From the NCBI GenBank assembly GCA_022842925.1, contig JALHOQ010000013.1, forward strand, positions 1-32,762: a stretch of 32,762 bases of DNA, given 5' to 3'. The notes beneath the pieces are model-generated. The model had not been told where the DNA came from, did not search any database, and saw only the letters and a list, made by a program, of their open reading frames with translations. Shown piece after piece: positions 3,542 through 12,237 of the stretch. Source of the DNA: Bdellovibrionales bacterium (GTDB lineage Bacteria; Bdellovibrionota; Bdellovibrionia; Bdellovibrionales; UBA1609). A program made the position numbers and the translations under genes. Position 1 is the first letter of the stretch, and each line of letters begins with the position of its first letter.

Positions 3542-4354
3542 CTACTCCTGAGCAAGCTCACGGTCGCGAAGGGCGGACTTCTCGAACGAGTAACGAAGTA
3601 GGCGCTCGATTTCGAGTTCGCGCATGGAAGCGAGCCCGGCCGCCGTGATCCCTTTTTTGCTGGTGACCCGGCTTTGCAGCTCTTCTAAAGATTGCGTGCC
3701 CGAGCGCAGCGCCAACTCCGATGCACCTAAGAAGGTGTGAATCGTCAGCTGCTGCGCGGTTTCGGGATCGAGTCCGTGCTCCTCGAGCCATTCCTGCCAG
3801 TAAATCATCAGCTCATAAACGAAGCCGACCCCGGCCGAAGATGCCACCGAAAACGCCTCAAAGGCATCGCCCTCATCCAACTTTATGGTAAAGCCCAGCG
3901 GCTTGAACATCCGATCCATAAACGAATCGGCGCGAAGGCTATCGCCCAAGGTGCAGTACGCGAAGCTACCTTTCATAACCTTGGCCGGCGTGTTGGCCAT
4001 CAATCGCACTAGGTTTCGGCATTGGGGCAGAAGTTTTTTAAGTTTACGCAGCTTAACCCCAGCCGCGAGACTGATCACGAGTTGGTCTTCGGTGAATGCG
4101 GACGAAATATTCTCGACCGCCGTTTCCAAATCCTGGGGTTTTACCGCCAGAATGACGACGTCGGATTTTTCAACCACGCCCTCATTGGTTGAGCACACCT
4201 GCACCTTGAACTGCTCTTCAAGCCGTTGCAGTTTGCCGGGCGTCCGATTACTTACGAAAATTTCGTCGGGCTTGGCCAAACCCTTGCCCAGCCAGCCTTC
4301 CACGATGGCGTGGGCCATGTTCCCGGCGCCAATAAATCCCACCGATTCTTTCAT
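3542..4354 (-). CDS. proC: Pyrroline-5-carboxylate reductase
   Basis: A 270-residue enzyme that reduces pyrroline-5-carboxylate to proline with NAD(P)H in the cytoplasm. The N-terminal Rossmann motif is GFIGAGNMAHAIVEG (about residues 6-20). DVVILAVKPQDLE is the classic second motif, and the family signature appears near the C-terminus as VTSKKGITAAGL (usual form VTSPGGTTIAGL). Length is normal for the family. The ATG is preceded by AAAGGTG at good spacing and lies 10 bases after the yggS stop, so the two are surely cotranscribed. yggS-proC adjacency is widespread in bacteria, and YggS is linked to PLP and proline/amino-acid homeostasis. Nothing looks damaged. Confidence 0.93.
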   Translation of the reverse strand: MKESVGFIGAGNMAHAIVEGWLGKGLAKPDEIFVSNRTPGKLQRLEEQFKVQVCSTNEGVVEKSDVVILAVKPQDLETAVENISSAFTEDQLVISLAAGVKLRKLKKLLPQCRNLVRLMANTPAKVMKGSFAYCTLGDSLRADSFMDRMFKPLGFTIKLDEGDAFEAFSVASSAGVGFVYELMIYWQEWLEEHGLDPETAQQLTIHTFLGASELALRSGTQSLEELQSRVTSKKGITAAGLASMRELEIERLLRYSFEKSALRDRELAQE

Positions 4355-4364
4355 AATTCACCTT

Positions 4365-5069
4365 TCACTCGCGCGGCCCGAATACATCCGAGCCGACTCG
4401 AATCCAAGTCGCGCCTTCTTCAACCGCGACCGCAAAATCCTGGCTCGTACCCATCGACAGCTGATCCAGTGGATGCACGGCTTTGAGCGGCGCGGGCAGC
4501 GCGGCTCTCAGCTCCCACAACAACCGACGGGCGCGATGGAAATAGGGACGCACGGCCTCCGGATTCTCCGTCTGCGGCGGCATCACCATTAAACCCTGAA
4601 GTCGTAAGTTTTTAAAGCCTACTGTTTTCTCCACAAGGTCGCGCAGCTCTGCTTCCGAAGCGCCGCCCTTGCTGGTCTCCTCGGCCACATTAAACTGAGC
4701 AAAAACTTTTTGCGGCCGCTCTGTCGATAGGGTATCGAAAGCGGCTGCGATTTCGATCCGATCAATCGAGTGAATGTAGGCGAACTTTCCCACCAGCATT
4801 TTCACTTTGTTCGACTGGATGCGGCCGATAAAGTGCCACGCGACCGGCATGTTCTCCAATTGCTCCAATTTCGTAACTGCTTCTTGCGCATAATTTTCGG
4901 CAAAGTCAGTTTGGCCGGCATCAAAAGCCGCGCGAATTTTCGCGATATCCTGACCTTTGGAAACGGCCAGCAGGCGCGCCGATCCGGGTGCACGGCCAGC
5001 GCGAACTTCACTTTGCAAAATTCTCTGCTTAACTTTTTCGAGGCGGCTGCCTACGGATGTGCCATCCAT
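4365..5069 (-). CDS. yggS: YggS-family PLP homeostasis protein
   Basis: A 234-residue protein of the YggS/PLPBP family, which binds pyridoxal 5'-phosphate on a TIM-barrel fold and buffers the cellular PLP pool without a known catalytic activity. Family marks are LLAVSKGQ with the PLP lysine at residue 38, DFAENYAQE, WHFIGRIQSNK, GLMVMPPQ, LSMGTSQDF (usually LSMGMS.D) and the C-terminal phosphate-binding IRVGSDVFGPR. The track ORF starts at 5180, but its first 37 residues are not family-like and lie inside maf. The ATG at 5069 gives the normal length and has a GAAGAAA stretch just upstream. With this start it overlaps the maf 3' end by 41 bases. Confidence 0.9.
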   Translation of the reverse strand: MDGTSVGSRLEKVKQRILQSEVRAGRAPGSARLLAVSKGQDIAKIRAAFDAGQTDFAENYAQEAVTKLEQLENMPVAWHFIGRIQSNKVKMLVGKFAYIHSIDRIEIAAAFDTLSTERPQKVFAQFNVAEETSKGGASEAELRDLVEKTVGFKNLRLQGLMVMPPQTENPEAVRPYFHRARRLLWELRAALPAPLKAVHPLDQLSMGTSQDFAVAVEEGATWIRVGSDVFGPRE

Positions 5070-5640
5070 TTTCTTCGAGAACTCTTTCCAACCGTTCCAG
5101 CGGTAAGCCGACGACATTACTCCAAGACCCCGTGGTAGAGGACACAAATTTGCCGGCCCGGCCTTGGATGCCGTATCCACCGGCCTTGTCCATGGGCTCG
5201 CCAGTGGCCACGTACTCCTGGATCTCGTCTTCGGTCAGCGAACGAAACTCGACCTCAGTCTGCTCATAGCCCTGCCAGAACTTGCCTGAATGCGACTCCA
5301 CCAGTGCCATTCCGGTAATAACGCGATGCGCACGACCCGACAAAAGTCGCAAAAATGCCAGCGCCTCCTCGACCGAAGTCGGCTTGCCTAAGATTTGATC
5401 ACCCAGGGCCACGATCGTATCGGCCGCGAGGATTAAATAGCCTTGTGATTTCAGATCTTTATTCTGGTCCAGACAGGCCTGCGCCTTCTGTGTCGCAAGA
5501 TGAGACGCGTTCTCCTCCGGATTCAAATTTTCTTCAATATTTTCCGATAGTTTTACTGGAGAGACAGTGAATTCATACCCGGCTTCAAACAACAGTTCAC
5601 GGCGGCGTGGGGATTGGCTGGCAAGGACAAGATTTAACAT
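5029..5640 (-). CDS. maf: Maf/YhdE-family nucleoside triphosphate pyrophosphatase
   Basis: A 203-residue Maf-family protein. Maf enzymes hydrolyse non-canonical or surplus nucleoside triphosphates to monophosphates and have been linked to septum formation. Signature motifs are LVLASQSPRRRELL at the N-terminus (substrate phosphate loop), LILAADTIVALGDQILGKP (metal-site Asp) and EPMDKAGGYGIQG near residue 150. The last form is typical of the dTTP/UTP-directed YhdE subgroup. It is the first gene of the minus-strand run maf-yggS-proC-divIVA. The start lies 36 bases from the divergent tadC-like gene, so the intergenic space must hold both promoters or share them with coding sequence. Confidence 0.93.
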   Translation of the reverse strand: MLNLVLASQSPRRRELLFEAGYEFTVSPVKLSENIEENLNPEENASHLATQKAQACLDQNKDLKSQGYLILAADTIVALGDQILGKPTSVEEALAFLRLLSGRAHRVITGMALVESHSGKFWQGYEQTEVEFRSLTEDEIQEYVATGEPMDKAGGYGIQGRAGKFVSSTTGSWSNVVGLPLERLERVLEENGWHIRRQPPRKS

Positions 5641-5676
5641 CTCTCCATGTAATGCGAACCGAAAGGTTTCTAGTCA

Positions 5677-6582
5677 ATGCTGAGTTTTGAATTTTTCATA
5701 CTTATCTCGGGTTTAGCTCTCGCCGCCCTCAGCGTTTATCTTTTTGCGAGCGCGATCTTCACCAATAACTCCGATGCGGAAGCGTTAGCCTGGGCGTCGG
5801 GTGACGAACCCATCCGGTCGAAGAGCGGCTTGATTAACTTTTCGCGACCGCTGGTTCACAACTTCACGCTGCAGCATGCGCAAAGGATCAAACGCAAAGC
5901 CTATCGCGAAAAAGTTCGCCGCACTCTCCTGACGGCCGGACTCAGCCGAGAGTTGAACGAAGACGAGTTTATTGGCCTTAAAATTCTATGGGGAATTTTT
6001 CTTCCCATCATGCTCGTGATTATGAATTTCGCCTTGCAGCTCGGCATGCCCTTATGGTTCGCGCCGTTCCTCGGACTGATTGGCTGGAATTTTCCCGACT
6101 TCTACGCCACCAATGCGCGCAAGCAACGTTACGTCGCCGTCGTAATGGATCTGCCGTTCTTTATCGACCTGATGGCGCTGAGTACGGAAGCAGGCCTGGA
6201 TTTAATGGGTGCGATTCAACGCATCGTCGACAAGGCCGATGACAGCGTCTTGGCCGAGGAGTTCCGGTTGGTCCTCAAGGACATCAAACTTGGCAGCTCC
6301 CGTCGTGAGGCTTTGGGCCGCCTCGCGGACCGCCTCGACATTCCCGAGATCACGAGCTTCTCCGCCGTTGTGCGTGATGCCGAAGACTCCGGAGCCAGCA
6401 TCGCCGGCGTGCTGAAAGATCAGTCGATCCAGATGCGTCTCGAGCGTTTTGTTCGGGCGGAAAAAGCGGGAGCGCGCGCCTCGCAACTGATGCTCTTCCC
6501 GCTCATGTTTTTGATTCTTCCCGCTGTGTTCACGATGGTGTTCTCGCCGGTGGTTTTACAATTCTTCTACGGGGGCAAATAG
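5677..6582 (+). CDS. tadC: Tad pilus / type II secretion F-domain membrane protein (TadC-like)
   Basis: A 301-residue inner-membrane protein with a T2SF domain (about residues 158-290). The marks are DLPFFIDLMALSTEAGLDLMGAIQRI, then the charged cytoplasmic helix bundle with LADRLDIPEITSFSAVVRDAEDSG.SIAGVLKDQS, and a final hydrophobic hairpin (LMLFPLMFLILPAVFTMVFSPVVL). The N-terminus has one TM segment (5-27) and a second hydrophobic region at 102-143. TadB/TadC are the paired platform proteins of Flp/Tad pili, working with the ATPase TadA; the length and ending favour TadC. No tadA, tadB, flp or secretin gene is present in this window. It heads a plus-strand operon and its stop overlaps the DUF192 start (TAGTG). 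An AAAGG sequence lies ten bases upstream of the ATG. Confidence 0.82.
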   Translation: MLSFEFFILISGLALAALSVYLFASAIFTNNSDAEALAWASGDEPIRSKSGLINFSRPLVHNFTLQHAQRIKRKAYREKVRRTLLTAGLSRELNEDEFIGLKILWGIFLPIMLVIMNFALQLGMPLWFAPFLGLIGWNFPDFYATNARKQRYVAVVMDLPFFIDLMALSTEAGLDLMGAIQRIVDKADDSVLAEEFRLVLKDIKLGSSRREALGRLADRLDIPEITSFSAVVRDAEDSGASIAGVLKDQSIQMRLERFVRAEKAGARASQLMLFPLMFLILPAVFTMVFSPVVLQFFYGGK

Positions 6583-6926
6583 TGAAGCTCCTCGACGCAC
6601 GCACCAACCAGACTCTCGTGCCCCGGCTCGAAGTGGCAAAGTCGGCGTGGGCCTGCATGCGCGGTCTTCTGGGTCGCGAAAATCTCGACGCCGACGAAGG
6701 CCTGTGGATCACACAGCGTGGAAGCATTCACACTTTTTTTATGAAATTCCCGATCGACGTGGTTTTTGTCGATCGCGAACTGACCGTAACCAAAACCGTC
6801 GCGCAAGTCGAACCGGGCCGGTTCGTATGGCGCGGATGGAAATCGTATAGCGTGATCGAACTCCAGGCCGGGTTCTTGGAGCGCCATCCGATTCGCGTGG
6901 GTGACAAGCTGCATGTGGATTCTTAG
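6582..6926 (+). CDS. DUF192-family protein
   Basis: A 114-residue small protein matching the DUF192 pattern: a leading VAKSAWACMRGLLGRENL segment, then GLWITQRGSIHTFFMKFPIDVVFVDRELTV and a closing VIELQAGFLERHPIRVGDKL. DUF192 proteins are widespread small beta-rich proteins of unknown function, often exported or near secretion and envelope genes. This copy has no obvious signal peptide. It begins with GTG overlapping the tadC-like stop by one base, and the following FHA gene starts inside its last 14 bases. It is therefore locked into the operon translationally. A role in Tad assembly or in processing an exported product is only a contextual guess. Confidence 0.85.
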   Translation: MKLLDARTNQTLVPRLEVAKSAWACMRGLLGRENLDADEGLWITQRGSIHTFFMKFPIDVVFVDRELTVTKTVAQVEPGRFVWRGWKSYSVIELQAGFLERHPIRVGDKLHVDS

Positions 6927-8529
6927 ATTCTTGAACGGCCCTTTGGCCGGACAAATCGTGCCGCTCAACAAACACTCCACTCTGCTGGGGCGAGCGCCGA
7001 ATTGCGACATCAAGATTCCAAGCGGTAATATTTCAAAAGAACACACCCGCATCGAAGTCTTTGACGACAAGCTGATCATCTCGGATGCGGGATCACGCAA
7101 CGGCACATTCCTCAACGGCATTCAGATTCGCTCGCAGAAAGCCAAATCCGGCGACAAGATCGCCATTCACGATATTTTCTTTGAGGTGCAAAAGGTCCCC
7201 GACGGATGGGCTCAACGCTACCAGCAGCCGTACCCCGTTTACGGTCAGCCGCATGCTCAGCAACAGCAAGCCTATAATGGCAATGCCGCTTATCAACAGC
7301 AACCGATCCAAGGTGAACCGATCCCGCAAGATGAGATGCAACAGGAAGATTTCGCCGCCAATTTTCCACGTTGGGCTTCGGGCGCCCAAGGGTACATGGA
7401 AGATGTGGTCCTGCCGGGAGTTTATAAACTTCCCGAGATGTTCGAATTCAAATGGGTGCTGGCGGGCTTTATGGCTGGGTTTATCCTCCTCGTCACCGCC
7501 CTGTCGTCCATCCCGCTCGTGCAAATTCTAAAGGTCAGCATCGAAGAAGAAAGCCAGCAACACGCGATGACGATCGCCACGACACTGGCGCGAATCAATC
7601 GACCGTTTCTGACTGCGGGTCAGGAGACCAGTGCGAACGTCGAAATCGCCACATCGCGACCGGGCGTGGCCAAGGCCTACATTATCTCCAATGTCGACGG
7701 CAATGTGATCGCCCCCGCTTCCGAATCGGGAAAATATCCGAACATGGATTACGTGCACGAGGGACGCAAGGGCAACAAGGAAACTGTCAGTCAGGTGGAC
7801 GACAACACGGTCGTGGCCATGGTTCCCGTAACCGCCTACAATCAAGACGTCGGCGCGCAAACGGTCACGCATTGGGCCGTGGTCTATTACGATATGAGTT
7901 CGCTCGCCGTCGACGACGGCCGCGTGTTGTCGTTGTTTATCACAACTCTTTTCATCTCGCTGATTCTCGGCTTCATTCTTTTTTACTTTCTCTACAAGTC
8001 CATCGAATACCCGATCCGAAGTATCAACCGCCAGCTCGATACCGCGTTGAAGGACGGACTCGACACGATCAACGTGACGTACCAGTTCCCTGCCATTCAA
8101 CTATTGGCCTCTAATATTTCAAGCGCGCTCAATCGCATTCTCACCGGAGGCGAAGGCGGCGGCAACCGCGTGATGGAGCACGACCGAAATCGCGAAGTAC
8201 AAAACCTTGTGGAACTGATCGGCTTCGCCGCCATCGGAGTGCGTGCCGCTGATCTCTCTATCGCCGCCGTTAACCAAACCGCCGAGGCGCGTCTCGGAAT
8301 GCCAGCCGCGCAACTGACCACGATCAACGTCAATGAGATTTCGGATCAGGCACTCAAACTCAGCATCAAGGATTTGATCGAACGCGTGGACCAAAATCCG
8401 GACGACCTGGCCTCCAACGAGCTCGAGTTTAGCGGCTTGAATTTTCAGATTGTGGCCCAGTCGGTCTTTGGCACCGGAAAGATCGCCTATTATCTAATTG
8501 TGCTGCTGCCCACGCAGGAGGGTGAATGA
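6913..8529 (+). CDS. FHA-domain transmembrane sensor protein (FHA-TM-sensor-TM-HAMP/PAS-like)
   Basis: A 538-residue multidomain protein. Residues 1-95 form an FHA domain, which reads phosphothreonine: STLLGRAPNCDIKI, SKEHTRIE, and DAGSRNGTFLNG (all key loops intact). A Gln/Pro/Tyr-rich linker (about 100-150) leads to TM1 (about 181-203). A roughly 135-residue extracytoplasmic region resembles a small Cache/PAS sensor (VAKAYIISNVDGNVIAP). TM2 follows (about 339-362), then a HAMP-like helix pair (IEYPIRSINRQLDTALKDG) and a C-terminal PAS-like region. No kinase, cyclase or methyl-acceptor domain is present. ATG 6913 is preferred to the track GTG at 6901, because the FHA domain starts right at MWILRFLNGPLAG and GGGTGA sits about eight bases upstream. 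The stop overlaps the next ATG (ATGA). Confidence 0.85.
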   Translation: MWILRFLNGPLAGQIVPLNKHSTLLGRAPNCDIKIPSGNISKEHTRIEVFDDKLIISDAGSRNGTFLNGIQIRSQKAKSGDKIAIHDIFFEVQKVPDGWAQRYQQPYPVYGQPHAQQQQAYNGNAAYQQQPIQGEPIPQDEMQQEDFAANFPRWASGAQGYMEDVVLPGVYKLPEMFEFKWVLAGFMAGFILLVTALSSIPLVQILKVSIEEESQQHAMTIATTLARINRPFLTAGQETSANVEIATSRPGVAKAYIISNVDGNVIAPASESGKYPNMDYVHEGRKGNKETVSQVDDNTVVAMVPVTAYNQDVGAQTVTHWAVVYYDMSSLAVDDGRVLSLFITTLFISLILGFILFYFLYKSIEYPIRSINRQLDTALKDGLDTINVTYQFPAIQLLASNISSALNRILTGGEGGGNRVMEHDRNREVQNLVELIGFAAIGVRAADLSIAAVNQTAEARLGMPAAQLTTINVNEISDQALKLSIKDLIERVDQNPDDLASNELEFSGLNFQIVAQSVFGTGKIAYYLIVLLPTQEGE

Positions 8530-9509
8530 GTTCGGCCGTTGCCGTATCCTCAGCCCCTGAGACTAAATGGACCGTCGTGCGCGGGCCGATGAAGGGCGTG
8601 GTACGACTGATGAGCCAGTCTCAGTTTACGATCGGGCGCAGTACGGAATGCGATTTCGTGATCGTGAACGACCCGAAATGCTCGCGTAAGCACGTGACCA
8701 TCTTGATCACGCCTCAAGGTTGCGAGGCGATCAGCCAGAATGATAAAAACCTGCTCTTAATCAACGGCCAAGAGGTGGACCGAGCCCGGCTTCGCGACGG
8801 CGACGTCTTGACGGTTGGTGAAACCGAAATTCAATTCAATGCCACGAGCACCGCGCGACGGCCGGAGATGCCGGTCGCGATGGCTCGGCCTTATCCAATG
8901 CCGGGCCCTGGAAGTCATCCTGTTCATATGCAGCCTCATCCCGCGGCTCCACCGCGACGCCCGCGCCGGCCCAAAAATTCGAACAACCGTCTCGTCATAT
9001 ATTTTGTGATCGGTCTTTTCTTCCTGTGGATCTTCACCACCGACGGCGGCAAAAAGAAACCGACCATCGACATTCGCACGGATCAAAAGATCCAGGCCGA
9101 CATTGAAGCCGCGAACAAGCTTAAAGAACAAGCCGAAACACAGGCCGCCAAGCGCCTTGATCAATCGGTCACCGTGCGCCAAGCCCAAGAGAATTACGTG
9201 CGTGGCTTTCGCGATTACAAAAAAGGCCAATATGATCGCTCGCTCACAAACTTCCAGGCCTGTCTCGCACTCCACCCCGACCATGTTCTTTGCAATCGCT
9301 ATATTCGCCTGGCTCAGCGCAAGTTCAATGAATTGATTCAGTATGAAGTCATTCTGGGCCGCAAGTACCGAGATCAGAATCAATTCCGCGCCTGCATGTC
9401 GTCTTTTAAGAACGTCATGTCGATGGTCAAGGATTCGAACAGCCCCATATATAAAGAGGCCAAGTCGAACTTTGAAGCCTGCAACTCCTTTGTGGAGGGG
9501 CGGTTCTAA
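8526..9509 (+). CDS. FHA-TM-TPR-like protein
   Basis: A 327-residue protein with an N-terminal FHA domain (about residues 14-105: FTIGRSTECDFVI, CSRKHVTI). The usual GSxNGTxVNG loop is changed to NDKNLLLINGQEV, so ligand binding may be weaker. A Pro/Arg/His-rich linker leads to a single TM segment (about 154-172, LVIYFVIGLFFLWIF), then a charged helix and TPR-like repeats (YVRGFRDYKKGQYDRSLTNFQACLALHPDH and following). If the FHA domain is cytoplasmic, one TM segment puts the TPR region in the periplasm. It overlaps the previous gene by four bases (ATGA) and the next by one (TAATG), so its product is probably made in step with both neighbours. Confidence 0.82.
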   Translation: MSSAVAVSSAPETKWTVVRGPMKGVVRLMSQSQFTIGRSTECDFVIVNDPKCSRKHVTILITPQGCEAISQNDKNLLLINGQEVDRARLRDGDVLTVGETEIQFNATSTARRPEMPVAMARPYPMPGPGSHPVHMQPHPAAPPRRPRRPKNSNNRLVIYFVIGLFFLWIFTTDGGKKKPTIDIRTDQKIQADIEAANKLKEQAETQAAKRLDQSVTVRQAQENYVRGFRDYKKGQYDRSLTNFQACLALHPDHVLCNRYIRLAQRKFNELIQYEVILGRKYRDQNQFRACMSSFKNVMSMVKDSNSPIYKEAKSNFEACNSFVEGRF

Positions 9510-11554
9510 TGGCGAGGCTGATTGTGAAACATCATGGCCAGGAGATCGCCAATCTGAAATTGGAGTTCGGCACGGAATATGTCGCGGGCCGAGCCGCCGA
9601 CGCACAGATTCGTTTGAAAGAGGAGCGCGGAATCTCGCGCCAGCATTTGAAGTTTTATGAGCGCGACGGCCATTGGGTTTGCGAAAGTCTAAGCAAATTC
9701 CTCCTGATTCAACAGGGCAGCCAAAGCATGGAGGTCCTGGAGCTCACCGCGACCTGCTCGTTCACACTGCCGCCCTATGAGTTCCATTTCGACCCTGAAC
9801 AACAGCCGGAAGCGGCACCCGAGTCCGAACAACCATTGAAAAACCTGCCCGTATTCGTTCAGCCGCGAATCGGCGGACCGGCGGGTGGACCCGCCGCCCC
9901 GATAAACTCGAATTTGCCTTCAGCCCATCCGCAGACCACGCACGTTCCCGAAGACACGGCGGTGCGCGGGAACAGTGAGGCGACGGTCGCCGGAGTGACG
10001 ACGCTCGTGCCCTATATTCGCATCAGCTATCCGAATACGGCCGACGACGAAGTGCTTAAGCTCGAAGGCAATCTCTGGGTCGCGGGCCGAGAGCGGGACT
10101 GCGAAATCATGGTCGACAGTCCGCATATCAGCCGGAAACACTTCGAATTGGCGCGCACCAAAGAGGGTTTCTTCGTCACCGATCTCGGCAGCTCCAACGG
10201 CACCAAAGTAAACGGTCAGCGCATTCCTTCGCACGAACCGACCAAGGTCGAGAGCGGCGACGAAATCGCCGTTATGAATATCCGCATGAACTTTGAGATC
10301 CGCGACAATCAGTTCGCCAATCGTCTGGACTCCCTGCCGGTCCCGGCTTTTGACCCGATGTTGGCGGCACCGCCGATGGAATGGTATCCCCCGCCTCAGC
10401 AAATGGCCATGCCGATGGTCTATCCGCAAGAGATGGGTGAGGATTTACCGGCGCTACGCGACTGGAAGAACATCCGCCCCCGGCACATCAAAAAGGTCAG
10501 TTGGAAAAAACATAAAGTCCGAATTCTTCTCGTGGCGCTTCTCCCGCTGGTCCTTTGGGGCGCGCTTAAAAATGATAAACCAAAAGAGCTCCCAAGAGAT
10601 CCGGCCAGCTCCACGACCAGTATTTCCTACGAGAATCTGAAAGCCGAACAAAAGGGCGTGGTCAAAGACTCCTTCCACCTCGCGCGCAATCTCTACGTGC
10701 AGGGCAAGTATGCGTTGTGCTTAACCGAGCTGGCGAAGGTACATGAAATCATCCCGCAGTTTGAGAACTCAAAAGAACTGCAATCCTTCTGCGAACAGGG
10801 CTTAGAACTCGTGCGCCGGCAAGAGGACCTGGACCGCAAAGAGCGCGAGAAAGTTTTTATCGAACAGCAAATCTCGGGCTATGCGGAAAACTGCAAACAA
10901 AAGCTGACGGTCACCGCCACCATCGACGAAACCCGTCAGTGCCTCGCCGACGCGATCGTGCTTGCGCCTGAACACCCCCTCGTTCTGGAAATGATCCATT
11001 CGGCGCAAATGCGAGAGCAGGAACGAAAATCTCTCCAAGAAATGAAGGCCGTCGAAAACGCCAAAATGGAAAAGGGCATGGCTCATTACAACCGAGCCCT
11101 TAAAATCTATAAAAATGGCAAGCTCGCGGCCTCAATCACCGAATTTGAGAGATTCCTAAGGACTGAATATCCAAAAGTGGCAGAGAAAAAGGAAGACGCC
11201 CGCCGCCAGGTCGCCTCGATTCGCCAAGAGTTAAAGGCGAAAGTCGAAGCGCTGGTCGCCCAGTGCAAACAGTTCGGCGAAAAGAACAAGTACCGCGAGG
11301 CCTACAGCGCCTGTTCCAAGGCCGTTGAGGAAGATCCGGGTAACGAGGGTGCCCGAAATTACCGCGACAAACTGACGGCTGATCTGCGACGTGAGATGAA
11401 GGTGATCTACGAGGACAGCGTGCTTGAAGAAAGCCTGGGCAACGTCGACAGCGCCAAGGAAAAGTGGAAAAAGATCATGTCCCACGACATCGACAGCGGC
11501 GAGTACTTTCAGAAAGCCAAATCGAAGATCCAAAAATACGGCGGCGGTTTCTGA
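9509..11554 (+). CDS. Tandem-FHA-TM-TPR protein
   Basis: A 681-residue protein with two FHA domains. The first (about residues 3-95) has VAGRAADAQIRL and ISRQHLKF but a poorly conserved NG loop. The second (about 168-264) is canonical: AGRERDCEIMV, ISRKHFEL, LGSSNGTKVNG. A Pro/Met-rich linker precedes a basic stretch (KKVSWKKHK) and one TM segment (about 338-353). The remaining 320 residues are helical TPR-like repeats (SFHLARNLYVQGKYALCLTELAKV, GMAHYNRALKIYKNGKLAASITEFERFL, CKQFGEKNKYREAYSACSKAVEEDPGN). By the positive-inside rule the TPR half would be periplasmic. It resembles the preceding gene in architecture, so the two may share ancestry. Its stop overlaps the next start (TGATG). Confidence 0.83.
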   Translation: MARLIVKHHGQEIANLKLEFGTEYVAGRAADAQIRLKEERGISRQHLKFYERDGHWVCESLSKFLLIQQGSQSMEVLELTATCSFTLPPYEFHFDPEQQPEAAPESEQPLKNLPVFVQPRIGGPAGGPAAPINSNLPSAHPQTTHVPEDTAVRGNSEATVAGVTTLVPYIRISYPNTADDEVLKLEGNLWVAGRERDCEIMVDSPHISRKHFELARTKEGFFVTDLGSSNGTKVNGQRIPSHEPTKVESGDEIAVMNIRMNFEIRDNQFANRLDSLPVPAFDPMLAAPPMEWYPPPQQMAMPMVYPQEMGEDLPALRDWKNIRPRHIKKVSWKKHKVRILLVALLPLVLWGALKNDKPKELPRDPASSTTSISYENLKAEQKGVVKDSFHLARNLYVQGKYALCLTELAKVHEIIPQFENSKELQSFCEQGLELVRRQEDLDRKEREKVFIEQQISGYAENCKQKLTVTATIDETRQCLADAIVLAPEHPLVLEMIHSAQMREQERKSLQEMKAVENAKMEKGMAHYNRALKIYKNGKLAASITEFERFLRTEYPKVAEKKEDARRQVASIRQELKAKVEALVAQCKQFGEKNKYREAYSACSKAVEEDPGNEGARNYRDKLTADLRREMKVIYEDSVLEESLGNVDSAKEKWKKIMSHDIDSGEYFQKAKSKIQKYGGGF

Positions 11555-12237
11555 TGCAACTCGACGAACGCAGTTACGCAGGCCAGATCTTTCGCCCGAA
11601 ACCCGAAACGTACTTCGAAGAGGACGGCTCATTCGGGGTCGTAGCGACGCCGTGGGGGCCCCGGGCCGCCGCAAAACGGACCATCGAAATCCTCAAAGAC
11701 TACATCCTCTCCGCCCGACAGGATATGGAGGCGACGTCGCCCTTCCAAAAGCTGACGTGTCTGTCGCCACTCGCGAACACCTTAAGAGTCGGAGTCATGC
11801 TGGCCAACGATTCCCTGTATCGCGAAGAGAACAAAAACGAGCACATTTCGGGAGTCGAACTGCTGGTTTTCTCCCATCAGTTCGGCGAACTCGCGTTCGC
11901 GCAGGTGGGTCATCCGAACTTTTTCTTGGCCCGGCTGGGAATGCCGTGGATTCCCCTAAGCGTACAATTCGATCTTTCGACCGAATTGAGCCGCCCGCCC
12001 GAAATACTGCCGCCGCTGCCGCAGAATATGATCGGCCTCCACACGACCACCAATCTCAACGTGTCCAGCTTCAAAACCCAAGCTCAAGACCGTTTGATTT
12101 TCCTGAGCCACTCCCACGTCTCGCACCCGATGAATACGGTGACTTTCGAACGAACCTCCCTCGACAAAATCTCTGAAACCTTGGCGCAGCGGCATCCCAA
12201 TCTGCCCTTCTGGCTGGGCGTGCTTGCCCTAGCCTAA
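11554..12237 (+). CDS. Degenerate PP2C-like (pseudo)phosphatase
   Basis: A 227-residue protein. The track ORF starts at 11464, but the ATG at 11554 overlaps the upstream stop (TGATG) and is the natural start. The middle reads like a PP2C/SpoIIE-type phosphatase core: GVELLVFSHQFGELAFAQVGHPNFFLARLG aligns by eye with the usual ..ANVGDSRAYL..G strand pair. QAQDRLIFLSHSHV sits where PP2C has ..GD.LLLCSDGL. In both places the metal-binding Asp is replaced (GDS to GHP, SDG to SHS), and no DGMGG motif is visible at the N-terminus. It is therefore probably catalytically inactive or very divergent. As the last gene of an operon with four FHA domains, a scaffold or phospho-switch role is plausible but is inference. 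Confidence 0.6.
   Translation: MQLDERSYAGQIFRPKPETYFEEDGSFGVVATPWGPRAAAKRTIEILKDYILSARQDMEATSPFQKLTCLSPLANTLRVGVMLANDSLYREENKNEHISGVELLVFSHQFGELAFAQVGHPNFFLARLGMPWIPLSVQFDLSTELSRPPEILPPLPQNMIGLHTTTNLNVSSFKTQAQDRLIFLSHSHVSHPMNTVTFERTSLDKISETLAQRHPNLPFWLGVLALA

Follow-up and report, generated by a model that had tools for sequence, protein, structure and literature searches.

An FHA-rich operon headed by a Tad platform gene in Bdellovibrionota: Kil-like, widely conserved and orthologous to Bd0470-Bd0475 of Bdellovibrio bacteriovorus

FHA domains bind phosphothreonine, and FHA proteins are found near some secretion and pilus systems. In type VI secretion, FHA and PP2C folds are joined in the PpkA-Fha1-PppA threonine phosphorylation pathway and control a contact-responsive machine; in the rings built of YscD/SctD, FHA folds are structural. 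A system in which FHA proteins accompany a Tad-like machine has been described in Myxococcus xanthus, where Kil assembles at contacts with prey; its authors counted Bdellovibrionales among the organisms with Kil-like systems and suspected signalling through the FHA domains (PMC8460266). Closer still are the genes Bd0470-Bd0475 of Bdellovibrio bacteriovorus HD100. A transposon insertion in tadC (Bd0470::tn) leaves cells that neither attach nor kill, and an insertion in an FHA gene (Bd0474::tn) leaves cells that attach to prey which is then neither killed nor rounded, both mutants having been complemented (PMC6561027). The Bd0474 protein interacts with Bd0075 in a two-hybrid assay, with contact predicted through their extracytoplasmic C-terminal domains, and AlphaFold-Multimer pairs Bd0473 with Bd0475 at an ipTM of 0.604 (PMC12034629). 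Expression of tadC is down in host-independent strains, along with other pilus genes (PMC3818213). In Bdellovibrio biology it is still an open question how the predator senses the touch of its prey and then moves on from attachment to entry. Predation requires the operon, yet its genes have mostly been regarded as hypothetical.

The window considered here, that is, the whole stretch of 32,762 nucleotides, is an entire contig (C13) of a genome of 3.66 Mb in 320 contigs. Between positions 5677 and 12237 it carries six genes, all on the forward strand and arranged head to tail, whose successive junctions are TAGTG, a 14-base overlap, ATGA, TAATG and TGATG; the 14-base overlap follows from the start preferred for the third gene, an ATG at 6913 in frame with a GTG at 6901. 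The genes and their domains are as follows.

5677-6582, forward strand: tadC, Tad inner-membrane platform protein, orthologue of Bd0470, KilH-like (Pfam T2SSF, E 5e-16; three hydrophobic stretches; 63% identity to HD100).
6582-6926, forward strand: DUF192 protein lacking a hydrophobic segment, orthologue of Bd0471 (PF02643, E 1.2e-19).
6913-8529, forward strand: FHA1, orthologue of Bd0472, read as FHA, TM, periplasmic Cache/PDC-like domain, TM, HAMP and PAS (FHA, E 3e-14; two TM; AlphaFold model; Foldseek).
6982-7167, forward strand: FHA domain of FHA1 (conservation of phosphothreonine-binding residues).
7543-7914, forward strand: predicted periplasmic sensor domain of FHA1, Cache/PDC-like, between the two TM stretches (model, with topology inferred).
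8185-8511, forward strand: PAS-like domain of FHA1 (model residues 425-533; weak WalK/VicK matches).
8526-9509, forward strand: FHA2, orthologue of Bd0473, read as FHA, TM and TPR (FHA, E 6.5e-12; TPR_2; one TM).
8628-8819, forward strand: FHA domain of FHA2 (residue conservation).
9509-11554, forward strand: FHA3, orthologue of Bd0474, read as FHA, FHA, TM and periplasmic TPR (FHA, E 3e-25, in two stretches; TPR).
9509-9808, forward strand, limits approximate: first FHA domain of FHA3 (Pfam; residue conservation).
10076-10270, forward strand: second FHA domain of FHA3 (residue conservation).
11554-12237, forward strand: putative PP2C-fold pseudo-phosphatase, orthologue of Bd0475 (profile, AlphaFold model, Foldseek, motif comparison).

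Open reading frame positions, junctions and Pfam searches (DUF192 at about E 1e-19; FHA in proteins 3, 4 and 5; TPR in 4 and 5) thus bear out the six genes, coordinates and overlaps that a preliminary description had read from the letters, including four FHA domains spread over three proteins. Upstream of tadC, in the window (3542-5676) and in most loci of the class, lie divergently oriented ProC-YggS-Maf genes; the gap between maf and tadC is only 36 bases, so both promoters must share it or sit inside genes.

The operon is the orthologue of Bd0470-Bd0475. In genome G004, identified as HD100, FHA3 agrees with the published numbering of Bd0474 at 17 of 18 residues, from which the correspondence follows, and the window has the same six genes in the same sequence as HD100, a member of another family of the same taxonomic order. 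Identity to HD100 is 63% for TadC, 46% for DUF192, 37% for FHA1, 30% each for FHA2 and FHA3, and 41% for PP2C; beyond family, no difference was found between the two operons. An earlier suggestion that this was an undescribed system must therefore be withdrawn, given the mutant phenotypes and FHA3 partner published for HD100 (PMC6561027, PMC12034629) and the prior description of FHA-rich Tad systems as Kil (PMC8460266). What has been published is the operon and its need in predation; what is new here is the phylum-wide gene order, the ancestral linkage to tad, the identity and decay of the PP2C gene, the sensor architecture, and a set of residues that can be tested. In the available text of the HD100 work Bd0475 is a hypothetical protein, and the PP2C fold, the order across the phylum and the tad linkage are not reported (PMC6561027, PMC12034629).

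Conservation of the operon was surveyed within the class using the last, PP2C-like gene as a marker, and our genome-wide statements rest on family and profile searches together with individual genomic stretches. The marker is present in 131 of 137 genomes of the class. Among 40 sampled loci from ten families, TadC-FHA1-FHA2-FHA3-PP2C is contiguous in 39, nearly always with DUF192 between TadC and FHA1, and since this order persists while PP2C identity to the window copy falls to 21-76%, it is not due to chance. In the remaining genome (G119, 1.5 Mb; L092 and L112) the first five genes form one group and the PP2C gene is some 20 kb away, behind genes for lipoyl synthase and dihydrolipoamide acyltransferase. 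Outside the class, TadC-(DUF192)-FHA1-FHA2-FHA3 recurs in 24 of 25 loci from approximately 15 families, contig ends aside, with PP2C next after FHA3 wherever the contig allows and the profile reaches; the 25th locus (L115) has the other genes in order and no recognised TadC open reading frame. Across the phylum, 289 of 290 genomes have a match to an FHA1 profile, a few of the lowest-scoring hits perhaps being to FHA domains only, and DUF192 follows tadC phylum-wide and in Geobacter also. The possibility that the order was confined to this strain is hence ruled out. Two departures deserve mention. In genome G086, rated 100% complete, TadE/F, CpaB, secretin, TadZ-TadA and TadB are kept (L270) and searches for TadC, FHA1 and PP2C found no match; either the entire operon has truly been lost or the assembly is incomplete there. 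In family f18 (L260-L264) an open reading frame of 388-440 aa directly follows the PP2C gene; in L260 and L263 it is read as a response-regulator receiver protein (PF00072, E 1.6e-13 in L260) and may point to two-component input in this family.

The FHA domains differ in how well their binding residues are preserved. In FHA1 the Gly-Arg, Ser and Asn-Gly positions are invariant in 32 of 32 proteins, with Thr after the Asn-Gly in 27 of them, and the second FHA domain of FHA3 retains its phosphothreonine-binding residues in 29-31 of 31. The FHA2 domain keeps Arg and Ser and has the loop Asn in only 22 of 31, and the first domain of FHA3 keeps Arg and Ser, its loop Asn having been lost in the class. 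At least two of the domains, that of FHA1 and the second of FHA3, therefore look competent to bind phosphothreonine, judging by these residues. FHA1 has two TM stretches and FHA2 one. The AlphaFold model of FHA1 (pLDDT 84.8) comprises an FHA domain, a TM helix, a Cache/PDC-like domain, a second TM helix, a HAMP-like helix pair and a PAS fold; with this model Foldseek returns the sensor kinase WalK at the top and FHA domains after it, and FHA1 has no kinase domain. The names Cache, HAMP and PAS are our reading of the modelled secondary structure and the WalK match, on which FHA1 is predicted to be a Cache-HAMP-PAS transmembrane sensor without a kinase.

The last gene, taken as a single sequence, has no match in Pfam, and only one weak PP2C_2 match emerged when the 38 members of the family were scanned individually. 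The family profile nevertheless reaches tPphA at E 8e-6, and an AlphaFold model of the protein (pLDDT 93.6) retrieves tPphA through Foldseek at E 1e-11 with a TM-score of about 0.7, as well as PstP and PppA; by profile and model alike, the protein has a genuine PP2C fold. In the class the metal motifs have been replaced, ED by KP (RPKP), DGxGG by TPWG and GD by GH (GHP), and the DN motif was likewise not visible when motifs were compared. In other classes the gene at the same position mostly retains ED and DGFGG or DGMGG, and in some cases DN, the GD motif having given way to GA, GS or GN; one of these proteins scores above the Pfam PP2C cut-offs and shows homology to the family found in the class. 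In this class the protein would accordingly be a non-catalytic pseudo-phosphatase by its sequence, and the earlier label of pseudo-PP2C was apt for it. The pattern across classes is the one that decay of a phosphatase to a pseudo-phosphatase should leave, and the step-wise motif loss is a clear natural example of an enzyme turning into a pseudo-enzyme where it stands.

The same observations bear on the alternative that survives best, although we consider it unlikely: that the FHA proteins and the pseudo-PP2C form a purely structural inner-membrane scaffold for Tad and read no phosphorylation at all. The FHA folds of the operon match the YscD Pfam family, FHA2 and FHA3 have a ring-like single-TM topology, two of the FHA domains have degenerated and the PP2C of the class is no longer catalytic, all of which a scaffold would accommodate. 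Against this, the phosphothreonine residues of FHA1 and of the second FHA domain of FHA3 are almost invariant across proteins that are otherwise highly divergent, and in other classes the PP2C gene in this position still has metal motifs.

The operon contains no kinase gene, and any phosphothreonine would probably be made by a kinase from another locus. A Hanks kinase occurs in 106 of 107 class genomes of at least 90% completeness; HD100 has exactly one, and the orthologue of that kinase is found in 106 of the 107, adjoining coaE and an acyl-CoA ligase gene in two genomes inspected. This conserved kinase is our first candidate for the source of phosphothreonine. The preliminary description had proposed that co-occurrence of operon and kinase be examined, and the kinase was duly found in all but one genome; its presence cannot be admitted as evidence of a link, however, because kinase and operon are both near-universal. 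In genome G066, which is 93% complete and has the operon, no kinase was detected.

The link to a Tad machine is more direct. Elsewhere in the same genome, contig C83 carries genes for a Flp-like pilin, TadE/F-like proteins, CpaB, a secretin of 513 aa with a BON-like domain, a TadZ-TadA fusion of 760 aa with a ParA/MinD-type N-terminus and no FHA domain, and TadB; TadC is missing from this locus. A search of the genome for platform domains gave one TadB, on C83, and one TadC, in the window, the other platform proteins belonging to type IVa pilus and type II-like systems, and the tadC of the window is consequently the sole candidate partner of the C83 locus. The TadA, TadB, secretin and Flp-type components that the preliminary description missed in the window, and supposed to be encoded elsewhere, are therefore accounted for. 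In other classes, tad core genes lie directly downstream of the operon in 11 of 25 sampled loci, an adjacency not seen in the class of the window; in L121, L125 and L255 the six genes run into TadE/F, CpaB, CpaC, TadZ-TadA and TadB, the order in L121 being TadC to PP2C, then Flp-like pilin, TadE, CpaB, secretin, TadZ-TadA and TadB. The simplest reading is that the operon was once part of a single tad locus and split off in the Bdellovibrio class and in family f18. The downstream tad core in other classes, and a tadB locus without tadC in this genome, support the original proposal that the module belongs to a Tad machine.

Several further genes in the genome are related to these. TadA-like ATPases are encoded on C83, C184 and C124, those on C184 (L028:3569-4684, 371 aa) and C124 (L029:3927-5030, 367 aa) being orphans without tad neighbours. 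In family f27 (L113) a relative of the C184 protein is encoded two genes beyond PP2C of the operon, and an ATPase of this type may serve the same machine. A separate FHA system is found on C20 (L025:5813-11422), where a 501-aa FHA-TM protein stands beside large TPR proteins in a locus resembling a Glt-type gliding locus.

Alternatively, the module could govern prey killing through another machine, FHA3 working with Bd0075, gliding parts or another envelope complex and the link to tadC being merely historical. Bd0474 mutants attach where tadC mutants do not (PMC6561027), and Bd0075, the partner of Bd0474, is encoded elsewhere (PMC12034629). We regard this as improbable, because adjacency to tadC holds throughout the phylum, the whole tad core is adjacent in several classes, and an FHA3 homologue lies near tadC in a Kil-type cluster of Myxococcus. 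The difference between tadC and FHA3 mutants in attachment and post-attachment phenotype does suggest that FHA3 may act not only through the pilus.

Our preferred interpretation, to which we would give a probability of roughly 0.7, is that the operon encodes the TadC half of a Kil-like Tad platform together with a dedicated membrane complex for signalling and scaffolding, and that the two form a switch responding to contact with prey or to events in the envelope. FHA2 and FHA3 would each be held by a single membrane helix, with FHA domains in the cytoplasm and TPR domains in the periplasm; FHA1 would be the Cache-HAMP-PAS sensor, its cytoplasmic FHA domain being the likely output; and the PP2C fold of the class would serve as a binding partner with no catalytic role. 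Contact with prey, or an event or stress in the envelope, would be perceived through the Cache and TPR domains, the signal in FHA1 passing through Cache, HAMP and PAS. As a result the FHA domains would dock differently, both on the pseudo-phosphatase and on phosphothreonine ligands for which a kinase outside the operon is probably responsible. The change in docking would license TadC, TadB and TadA to build or power the pilus where the cell is attached, a step that we would place after adhesion and before prey killing. We infer that the operon works through phosphothreonine signalling, and we likewise infer its kinase and ligand, which way the signal runs and what step it switches. The lack of a detected kinase in G066, the two degenerate FHA loops of the four, the structural role of FHA folds in YscD rings and the differing phenotypes of tadC and FHA3 mutants count against this interpretation. 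A bolder form of it, which is tentative and which we think rather doubtful, is a contact switch common to the phylum, in which the FHA1 receptor, the two FHA-TPR proteins and the pseudo-phosphatase read the threonine phosphates of one conserved kinase and turn contact with prey into pilus drive, with full loss of catalysis in the Bdellovibrio class only, where an off-switch would have become a phospho-reader or adaptor. As one ancient, phylum-wide unit tied to the Tad core that combines a predicted sensor, conserved FHA domains likely to read phosphothreonine and a decayed phosphatase, the operon reduces the question of prey sensing to a few tests of point mutants.

Among known systems, the one that can be set aside is type VI secretion. 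In principle the FHA domains, a PP2C fold with PppA among its closest structural matches and a Hanks kinase, together with weak TagH matches, would suit a PpkA-Fha-PppA pathway transplanted beside tadC, but this is hardly credible when the sheath gene VipB/TssC is found in none of 107 class genomes (with E. coli as positive control), the phosphatase is degenerate and, by its sequence, inactive, and the operon lacks a kinase gene. The absence of the sheath refutes type VI secretion itself, and a pairing of the FHA proteins with that system, which the preliminary description had allowed for, did not hold; in mechanism there may still be a likeness to PpkA-Fha-PppA. With the canonical Tad/Flp pilus (Caulobacter Cpa, Aggregatibacter Tad) the system shares TadA, TadB, TadC, TadZ, CpaB, secretin and TadE/F-type genes, and departs from it in a tadC that stands apart from the other tad genes and is bound up with FHA and PP2C genes.

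Kil provides a further close comparison. Loci of this kind in Myxococcota were reached through an MglA marker. Myxococcus sp. CA023 has two FHA-TM proteins after CpaB-TadB-TadC, and the latter of them (582 aa, FHA-TPR, two genes after tadC) is a full-length homologue of FHA3, including the TPR (hhalign E 6e-22); this stretch has no DUF192, FHA1 sensor or PP2C gene. In Geobacter there is TadC-DUF192 without FHA, and the FHA1 sensor and PP2C gene occur only in Bdellovibrionota among the loci sampled. A similar Kil-type cluster, CpaB-TadB-TadC-FHA-FHA (L237), accompanies a Myxococcus-type MglA (98%) in a record titled Comamonas sp. KCTC 72670 (L143), which appears to be a mislabelled myxobacterium. 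The features common to Kil and the present system are a Tad-like machine, genes split over clusters (here C13 and C83), many FHA proteins (PMC8460266, PMC12075869) and an FHA3 homologue near TadC. Contact-dependent prey killing, a trait of Kil, is known here from the HD100 orthologues only (PMC6561027). The Kil secretin is short and lacks N0; that of C83 is the protein of 513 aa with a BON-like domain. The KilF ATPase carries an N-terminal FHA domain, whereas the main ATPase here is the TadZ-TadA fusion, which has none; and Kil has a single TadA-type ATPase, whereas this genome encodes more than one. Because of these two differences the system is Kil-like, and not Kil.
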